Source: an uncultured Bacteroidales bacterium
Lineage (GTDB): Bacteria; Bacteroidota; Bacteroidia; Bacteroidales; UBA932
Assembly (NCBI GenBank): GCA_944325505.1
Contig: CALVAJ010000029.1
Coordinates: 1 to 34,467, forward strand
DNA: 34,467 nt
Reading direction: 5' to 3'
Under the pieces are notes generated by a model. That model was given only the letters and a program-made list of their open reading frames with translations. It did no database searches and had not been told where the DNA came from. A program made the position numbers and the translations under genes. Positions 36-31,049 of this stretch are shown piece after piece; within the stretch, counting starts at the first letter, position 1, and each line of letters begins with the position of its first letter.

Positions 36-103
36 TCAATTCATTATAAAGTTTTATTCTTTTTACGACAGTCCCTATTTAAGCACAAGAGGGGGGGTCA
101 AAA

Positions 104-194
104 GGAGGAATTTCAAGGCTTGCGCAGAAGAGAAAACCGCAGTGTACTGTCGTACATGAGGATTTTCGATTCAAGCGTAACGCAGAAAGTACCC
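104..194 (+). repeat. Structured repeat, copy A
   Basis: This 91-base unit differs from copy B (6603-6693, opposite strand) at about six positions. Both begin GGWGGAATTTCAAGGC and end AACGCAGAAAGTACCC. The centre is a hairpin with stem TGTAC (143-147), loop TGTC and stem GTACA (152-156). A further stem pairs GAAAA with TTTTC, and TTTC pairs with GAAA near the ends. Flanking AAAAGG and CCTTTT extend the stem beyond the conserved core. It lies in a spacer between divergent promoters. Confidence 0.8.
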
Positions 195-288
195 TTTTCA
201 GCCACCCTCTTATTTTTAATATATTAATCCATAATAATTTATGTAATACTATTTCTCCGTCTTTTGAGAGACGATTTCCGTTCCGGAA

Positions 289-6577: not shown

Positions 6578-6602
6578 ACAAAACGGAAGGAACGTCCCAA
6601 AT

Positions 6603-6693
6603 GGGTACTTTCTGCGTTACGCATGATTCGAAAATCCTCATGTACGACAGTACACTGCGGTTTTCTCACCTGCGCAGGCCTTGAAATTCCACC
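6603..6693 (-). repeat. Structured repeat, copy B (inverted relative to copy A)
   Basis: Read on the minus strand this 91-base core matches copy A at all but about six positions. The central hairpin is identical (TGTAC, TGTC, GTACA at 6654-6641). The flanks also pair: CCTAAAAGGT on one side with ACCCATTTGGG on the other (minus strand, one wobble, one mismatch and a bulged base). The flank sequence differs from copy A while pairing is kept. It occupies the 138-base gap between the convergent MATE and gdhA genes, where it could act as a transcription terminator. Confidence 0.8.
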
Positions 6694-6715
6694 TTTTAGG
6701 TAACAATCAATGCCG

Positions 6716-25045: not shown

Positions 25046-25075
25046 TTATGCAAGGGGCGCACGATTTACGTGCAT
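25046..25075 (-). CDS. Possible 9-codon upstream reading frame in the riboswitch leader
   Basis: Between the TPP aptamer and the receptor start, the minus strand reads ATG at 25075 to TAA at 25046, coding MHVNRAPLA. It lies in a hairpin (GCACG at 25073-25069 with CGTGC at 25063-25059) and is out of frame with the receptor gene, which begins ten bases later. It may be chance; if translated it could affect receptor translation. Confidence 0.2.
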   Translation of the reverse strand: MHVNRAPLA

Positions 25076-25081
25076 GAGATC

Positions 25082-25158
25082 ACTGCTTCCCTACGCCGGT
25101 ATCAGCCGGATCAGGTTCAATGGGTATTTCTCAACCTTTAATAGGTACCCCCGCAAAT
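25082..25158 (-). promoter_or_regulatory. TPP riboswitch (THI element)
   Basis: On the minus strand the leader contains GCGGGGGTACC, TTGAGAAATACCC, GAACCTGATC, a stem CCGG-CTGATA-CCGG and CGTAGGGAAGC in order and spacing of the thiamin-pyrophosphate aptamer; TGC and GCA at the ends can close P1. It lies 46 bases upstream of the receptor ATG. The hairpin that follows (25059-25073) has no T-run, so control is more likely at translation than by termination. Thiamin pyrophosphate would repress the receptor. Confidence 0.95.
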
Positions 25159-25167
25159 AAATATGTA

Positions 25168-30509: not shown

Positions 30510-30563
30510 CATTGCATCTGAGACCCGATCCGGTCTTCAGATTCCAGGACGAATCCGTAATGA

Positions 30564-30582
30564 CCGTAAAACACTTTTACGG
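30564..30582. other. Short perfect hairpin between the OYE gene and rnpB
   Basis: CCGTAAAA, CAC, TTTTACGG forms a perfect eight-pair stem. A neighbouring ATCCGTAA at 30553-30560 can pair with the same TTACGGAT segment (30577-30584), so two alternative stems exist. There is no T-run. A longer imperfect stem (ATCTGAGACC with GGTCTTCAGAT) lies just before, at about 30516-30542. These may end the OYE transcript. Confidence 0.35.
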
Positions 30583-30628
30583 ATCCAGTACACTGAATTA
30601 TTAAGGAATCAAGTTGTTTGAAATACAA

Positions 30629-31043
30629 GGCGGGACGATCTGCCGCCATTGCGGATAAAAATTGGAGATTTCAAGGCGCGCGAGTTTCGAGTCCCGGAGC
30701 AACCTGTAGGTTGTGAGGACACGAGAAACGAGCAGCAACGCCGAAAGTTCCAATTTTTGCCGCAATAGAGGAAAGTCCGGACAGCACAAGGCACCCCGCT
30801 GCGGAAATCGCAGCCGGGAGTAATCTCGGGAGGGCCGTAACAGAAAACAACCGCGCTTAAAGCGTAAGGGTGAAAACGCGAGGCAAGAGCTCACGACGCG
30901 ACATGGCGACATGCCGCGGGTACGGTTCCGGGGGCTGCAAGACCAAATATACTGGCAGTCAAGGGTCGCCTGCCCGTTGCCAGGGGGTAGGTTGCGAAGA
31001 TAAATGGCAGATTCAAAAACAGAAACCGGCTTACGGTCCCGCC
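30629..31043 (+). ncRNA. rnpB: RNase P RNA with an expanded P3 region
   Basis: The catalytic RNA that matures tRNA 5' ends. The universally conserved GAGGAAAGTCCGGAC is at 30768-30782, an ACAGAAA segment follows, then AAGGGTGAAAACGCGAGGCA, and near the 3' end AGATAAATGGC (30998-31008) and ACAGAAACCGGCTTAC. P1 is closed by GGCGGGAC (30629-30636) with GTCCCGCC (31036-31043), after which TTTTTT follows. Between P1 and GAGGAAAGTCC, where the short P2/P3 helices usually lie, a long stem (TTGCGG with CCGCAA; AAAAATTGGA with TCCAATTTTT) carries the third copy of the structured repeat at its tip. Total length is about 415 nt. No protein frame in the region is credible. Confidence 0.95.
30664..30752 (+). 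repeat. Structured repeat, copy C, inside rnpB P3
   Basis: This shares with copies A and B the order TTTCAAGGC, CCG-x-AG, an apical hairpin, TGAGGA, CGA, AGC, AACGC, GAAAGT-x-CC. The hairpin is CAACC (30700-30704), loop TGTA, GGTTG (30709-30713), against TGTAC/TGTC/GTACA in A and B. Four of five base pairs differ, yet all pair. The next stem is GTTTC with GAAAC here, GAAAA with TTTTC in A and B. It sits at the end of a 16-pair stem within the RNase P RNA. Confidence 0.8.
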
Positions 31044-31049
31044 TTTTTT
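31036..31049 (+). terminator. Terminator of rnpB
   Basis: The 3' strand of P1 (GTCCCGCC) followed at once by TTTTTT serves as an intrinsic terminator for the RNase P RNA. The next gene begins 34 bases after the RNA, so some readthrough into it is possible. Confidence 0.6.

Follow-up and report, generated by a model that had tools for sequence, protein, structure and literature searches.

The window analysed here is the whole 34,467-nucleotide stretch of contig CALVAJ010000029.1 (GenBank assembly GCA_944325505.1), originating from an uncultured Bacteroidales bacterium. It carries a gene for RNase P RNA (rnpB) with an enlarged P3 arm, together with two dispersed copies of a structured repeat (Table 1). 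The Rfam family RF00010 matched the window with 157.3 bits at 30737-31049, above the gathering score of 100, which assigns the RNA to class A. This match begins downstream of the true 5' end of the gene, which is misplaced by Rfam because of the insert in P3; the end was set by the P1 helix, in which GGCGGGAC (30629-30636) pairs with GTCCCGCC (31036-31043). The conserved block GAGGAAAGTCC lies at 30768-30778, just past the P3 arm, and the blocks ACAGAAA, AAGGGUGAAA and CCGGCUUACGG are all intact in the RF00010 alignment. No second rnpB was found, the genome (assembly 92% complete) giving a single RF00010 match. Between 30550 and 31120, a scan for signals gave no sigma-70-like promoter and a single terminator-like hit (minus strand); neither outcome departs from chance. 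Elsewhere in the window, a TPP riboswitch (67.4 bits) is located at 25070-25162 on the minus strand.

Table 1. Positions of the rnpB gene, the parts of its P3 arm and the dispersed repeat copies in the window
Feature	Positions	Strand	Evidence
A-subtype dispersed copy	100..198	+	BLAST; R1 105.9 bits at 110-190 (training sequence)
A-subtype dispersed copy	6599..6697	-	93% complementary to 100-198; R1 101.9 bits at 6607-6687 (training sequence)
rnpB, class A RNase P RNA, P1 to P1'	30629..31043	+	RF00010 match and P1 pairing
Enlarged P3 arm, about 122 nt (congener median 16 nt, n=143 measured)	30646..30767	+	P3 survey
Basal P3 stem, 5' strand TTGCGG	30649..30654	+	Sequence reading, fold
Copy-specific arm AAAAATTGGA	30657..30666	+	Sequence reading; arm test (locus L117)
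C-subtype core of the dispersed element	30668..30748	+	Covariance models R1 and R2
Copy-specific arm TCCAATTTTT	30749..30758	+	Sequence reading; arm test (locus L117)
Basal P3 stem, 3' strand CCGCAA	30760..30765	+	Sequence reading, fold

The basal stem and the arms above it were read in the sequence where the original prediction had placed them. The 117 nt between 30649 and 30765 fold with -50.1 kcal/mol (z -6.4), a value equalled by none of 200 shuffles. It had further been proposed that the tip of this arm holds the core of the repeat present at the two other places in the window. Direct comparison within the window detects just 30 nt of direct repeat at 70% identity, between 95-124 and 30653-30682. 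The covariance model R1, for which nine dispersed copies and no rnpB were used (seven of subtype A, one B and one C, labels coined in this analysis according to the sequence of the upper hairpin), scored the P3 core with 58.6 bits (E 2.9e-13). Since the C copy in R1 had originally been picked up through its likeness to the P3 insert (locus L062; in the following, L and G numbers denote the loci and genomes of the analysis, G000 being the genome of the window), model R2 was built from the same set minus that copy (seven A, one B) and gave 34.0 bits (E 3.8e-6) for the same core, these and all other covariance-model E-values being rough by the tool's own warning. The closest dispersed relative of the P3 insert by BLAST is G000:C7:48888-48956 (79%, E 3.8e-7), followed by weaker matches. 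A dispersed structured repeat thus resides inside P3 and the elements compared are significantly alike; the P3 core belongs to the same family as the other two copies of the window, as proposed, but not to the same subtype, being C where they are A.

The P3 sequence does have copies elsewhere in its genome: R1 gave at least 32 matches at E<=1 and at least 30 at E<1e-3, the one in P3 included, among the 150 of 282 candidates scored. BLAST with the copy at 100-198 returned 38 matches in the same genome, of which 11 reach at least 90% over most of the repeat and one 73% over positions 14-89, the others being short. On reading, these matches include shortened forms of the repeat, which would apparently be deletions between TTCAAG repeats. 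The hairpin is sustained by covariation: across 30 R1 matches (27 distinct), 88.6% of the cells are paired and both sides have changed in 19 of the 24 pairs, with a score of 0.437 versus 0.149 for shuffled data (0/500) and at most 0.094 with slid partners, in an alignment which was made by fitting to R1 and so leans toward that structure. The letters CAAGG, the AG before the apical stem and ACG are invariant in 15 aligned core copies, taken from Candidatus Cryptobacteroides, the genus of the window genome and of the congeners surveyed, and from two genomes of other families. None of 4227 Rfam families matched the core in the window, in 30560-30800 (E<=10) or in 20 loci (gathering score); the RF00010 match within 30560-30800 starts at 30732 and represents rnpB itself, not the core.

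Several copies lie beside or within other genes. An A copy is in frame within the open reading frame 1082-2137 of L102 (1501-1581; G000:C21:38234-38314), with a shorter version, also in frame, in G076, and two G343 relatives without the insert. A C copy is found immediately 3' of the small SRP RNA (L121, 1501-1582), and a shortened A copy immediately 3' of tmRNA (L017, around 1486-1528). Copies of subtype B, some in tandem, are situated directly upstream of tRNA-Val or tRNA-Met in G000, G253, G209 and G403 (L116/L022, corresponding to G000:C9 around 39959-40288, L123, L319, L324, L333 and L338), and a group II intron match of 45.8 bits was recorded near a B array (L116, 801-891, minus strand).

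The comparison was extended to rnpB genes of relatives. A scan of genome contigs for the exact core pattern near GAGGAAAGTCC yielded five loci, from Candidatus Cryptobacteroides faecipullorum, excrementipullorum and avicola and from two uncultured Bacteroidales, the P3 of faecipullorum differing from that of the window in two letters. In the genus, an rnpB match was obtained in 343 of 400 genomes, and a looser core pattern had seven matches in the 400, six of which were taken as P3 inserts; the one in G161, a genome without an rnpB match, was judged from its letters to be chance. P3 was read in 151 rnpB loci, representing 150 distinct genomes among the 343, chosen among high, intermediate and low rnpB scores with a deliberate bias to the low ones. 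From 152 loci tried, L196 had no motif, L133 was the same contig as that of G343 and seven had no usable P1, which left 143 measured; the P3 lengths of L074, L083 and L178 were set by eye on account of a false P1, and 15 rows were rechecked.

Most of these P3 arms are short, 108 having at most 27 nt, 18 between 28 and 60 nt and 17 more than 60 nt. The element was detected in 8 of the 143 measured genomes and is absent from most, subtype C occurring in six, A in one and B in one. With R1, the C inserts scored 58.6 (G000), 56.3 (G091), 55.3 (G076), 50.4 (G209), 37.3 (G343) and 31.8 bits (G098), the A insert of G267 98.3 bits and the B insert of G407 23.8 bits (E 4.9e-4), the position of the latter inside P3 having been verified. 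R2 recognised G267 (96.3 bits), G000 (34.0), G091 (33.2), G076 (31.7) and G407 (26.4) at E of at most 3.7e-4; it was weak or silent on G209 (E 0.012), G343 (E 0.13) and G098 (no match), so that the assignment of these three rests on the C copy in R1. Some inserts are nearly identical, with two letters separating G000 from G076 and three separating G098 from G343. By eye, the P3 of G410 appears as a remnant of the element, while that of G403 is a plain 24-nt hairpin, TATTGCGGACTTTTTCCGCAATA, on the same basal stem as in G076. Nine measured genomes have a P3 longer than 60 nt without a model match in it, and those arms are built differently from the element. Other hairpin-like P3 expansions were observed at L069, L079, L082, L085, L084, L178, L181, L235, L089, L074, L075, L080, L083, L086, L088 and L097; part of them look like dispersed repeats of another kind (e.g. 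GTCATTCC...GGAATC). In G133, a B copy lies just 5' of the rnpB P1 and outside P3 (L098, 1381-1462; R1 36.1 bits).

The history of the insert was followed on a midpoint-rooted FastTree phylogeny of 111 of the 151 rnpB cores (P3 removed, about 300 nt). The C carriers G000, G076, G091, G098 and G343 form a grade together with the remnant-bearing G410 and the non-carrier G403. Next to it branch G284, which has no element, and then G267, with subtype A; G407, with subtype B, sits in a group nested beyond G267, the other members of which have a P3 of 14-53 nt, and the C carrier G209 is placed in a distant clade. Presence and absence of the element in P3 amount to six changes on the 111-leaf tree, a number which is unchanged when nodes below 0.7, 0.8 or 0.9 are collapsed. 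As far as can be judged from rnpB sequences, this distribution suggests that P3 may have gained the element three or four times. When the subtypes are taken into account, the most economical history would have four gains and two losses; three gains could do if G267 retained an older insert with its subtype exchanged, and fewer could suffice if copies swap subtypes through gene conversion.

Outside rnpB, many Cryptobacteroides copies cap long copy-specific stems, often 3' of genes, and for several of them the stop codon of the gene falls within or beside the arm. A hairpin followed by a T run 3' of genes was seen by eye at many copies; the position and the T runs indicate that the capped hairpins at gene 3' ends are probably terminators or 3'-end stabilisers. 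Within the group of C-type and rnpB copies, which was sorted by eye like the others and takes in the A-type copy from the rnpB of G267, all 15 of 15 pair better with their own 3' arm than with that of any other copy (mean 31.7 versus 11.6 crosswise; 0/20000 permutations). The own arm is the best partner in 8 of 12 A copies (0/20000 permutations) and in 3 of 7 B copies (423/20000). Core-less plain hairpins with A-type arms were sought by one rule in 245 kb of G000 loci (overlaps included), and none was retrieved.

Orthologous sites in seven genomes (L113 and most of L114 being left out of this reading) have the core present in some and absent in others. The L122 locus holds a full copy in G000 and G091, a short one in G076 and G403, a plain hairpin in G098 and G410, and no clear stem in G343. 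At L107 a C copy in G091 corresponds to a plain hairpin without core in G403, at L103 the 3' arm alone remains in G076, and at the L118 and L121 sites of G403 the core is absent with no clear stem. Such states are compatible both with insertion into the tips of hairpins and with decay of the element.

Beyond the window genome, R1 matches at E<=1e-3 number at least 26 in G267, 28 in G091, 17 in G343 (its rnpB not included), 5 in G403, 4 in G209 (rnpB included) and 1 in G253, with none in G016, G120 and G178 among the candidates scored; since at most 150 candidates were scored per genome, the counts in the genus are lower bounds. Across Bacteroidales, a match at E<=1e-4 was obtained in 32 of 119 genomes (30 of 117 outside the genus), and three of these 30 have at least 39 matches each, 39 being the number of candidates scored. 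Being short and present in many copies, in G000, G267 and G091 alike, and bounded by terminal inverted repeats, the element resembles a MITE; in Cryptobacteroides these repeats are the copy-specific arms, and copies from other genera (L351-L353, L355-L360, L369 and L370) have shared inverted ends.

Twenty copies were taken from six genomes of other genera, two of them at contig ends being left out. Both flanks are available for 18 of these copies from other families, and an identical TANNTA lies flush with the two ends in 11 (9/10 in G488, 1/1 in G481, 1/1 in G443, 0/4 in G483, 0/1 in G449 and 0/1 in G474), under a rule chosen after inspection which mismatched-flank controls pass in 22 of 200 cases. 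By this rule, copies with inverted ends and TANNTA duplications occur in three of the six genomes, and none of the 20 copies taken from the 30 in G000 has such a duplication. No phage or plasmid carriage emerged from exact-pattern searches of viral contigs and blastn searches of plasmids, and no cognate transposase was found with both sets scanned; we know of no cognate insertion sequence for the element in Cryptobacteroides.

Taken together, the P3 arm very probably owes its size to a copy of a MITE-type hairpin, short and non-coding, which consists of a core of about 81 nt and complementary arms. In several Bacteroidales species, mobile-looking hairpin repeats that are scattered over the genome appear to have settled in this essential catalytic RNA on more than one occasion. 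The element would have come to P3 through transposition, or else have been copied there from an existing copy. P3 being a peripheral hairpin, growth at its tip would leave P1, P2 and P4 undisturbed, which may be how the insert persists, and the fold together with the single gene found suggests that it may be transcribed and not removed on maturation, giving the finished RNA a long P3 extension. There is next to no chance that the long P3 was simply inherited vertically and resembles intergenic hairpins by accident: P3 length does vary in the genus, nine long arms having no model match, but the R1 match and the R2 match obtained without the C copy oppose coincidence, as do A, B and C cores in the P3 of different species.

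The original prediction had offered two readings, insertion at a tolerated helix tip and recruitment of the repeat at this site. Insertion fits best, with the element at the P3 tip and both present and absent among relatives. For recruitment, a protein or nuclease recognising the core would act on RNase P RNA in processing, localisation or stability; the invariant core letters leave room for something that recognises them and the P3 inserts are near-identical within pairs, but the core may equally have been conserved through the spread of the element itself. Moreover, the rarity of the insert and the state of two relatives, G403 with its plain P3 and G410 with no more than a remnant, make the P3 element look dispensable; recruitment is improbable. 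A less remote, if still unlikely, alternative is that hairpins already in place, namely terminators and P3, are the specific targets of the element, which would enter at their tips, with arms made of host sequence. Arms which are copy-specific and self-complementary in all 15 C-type and rnpB copies favour it, as do the core-less plain hairpins at L122, L107 and the rnpB of G403. Arms of subtype A, however, share an inner GACTCAAAAGG while their outer changes preserve pairing, which implies that some of the arm either moves along with the core or evolves in concert with it. Shortened copies are common, and the plain stems may therefore be losses; the sites where no stem is clear (L118 and L121 in G403, L122 in G343) and the poorly fitting B-type arms also weigh against it.

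The enlargement of P3 by a MITE-type hairpin could belong to a wider, decidedly doubtful scheme in which an element found throughout Bacteroidales moves when its core is copied to the tip of a nucleic-acid hairpin that is already there, P3 having received it on three or four occasions, in three subtypes. If copying onto tips were true, terminators and structured RNAs would be the targets of a shape-based rule acting even on an essential ribozyme. A helix colonised again and again, and met in related species as empty, occupied or decayed, would offer a natural test of the limits of P3 growth. The analysis also brings to light a structured repeat family across Bacteroidales to which Rfam gave no match here.

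Rickettsia palindromic elements are short palindromes able to sit inside genes, and the A copy in frame within an open reading frame is comparable to them, although they occur in other bacteria and the likeness is one of description. REP sequences associated with RAYT genes are dispersed palindromes as in the present case (PMC3733652, PMC2817692). Three Y1-transposase-like genes (L099 1387-2259, L100 886-1752 and L101 883-1854) are by eye each flanked by palindromes of their own, not by the element as expected of REP repeats around a Y1 transposase gene, and a RAYT link is not supported; Pfam Y1_Tnp is weak on them (two of three above the cut-off), and phmmer of L099 gave weak structure matches only (best E 0.16). 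BrickBuilt MITEs of Porphyromonas, as described in PMC10969869, are also short, non-coding, multi-copy and mostly intergenic; they are likened to the element by description only, and in Cryptobacteroides the target duplication is missing. Neither the element nor MITEs in rnpB are described among the literature matches listed, which cover subscription literature in small part. A precedent is provided by the STRR repeats in rnpB of heterocyst-forming cyanobacteria (Vioque 1997, as cited in PMC2858038), where a repeat family likewise lies within the gene for RNase P RNA. By the title of that work the repeats are short and in tandem, whereas the element described here is one long structured hairpin, occurring in three subtypes, at P3.
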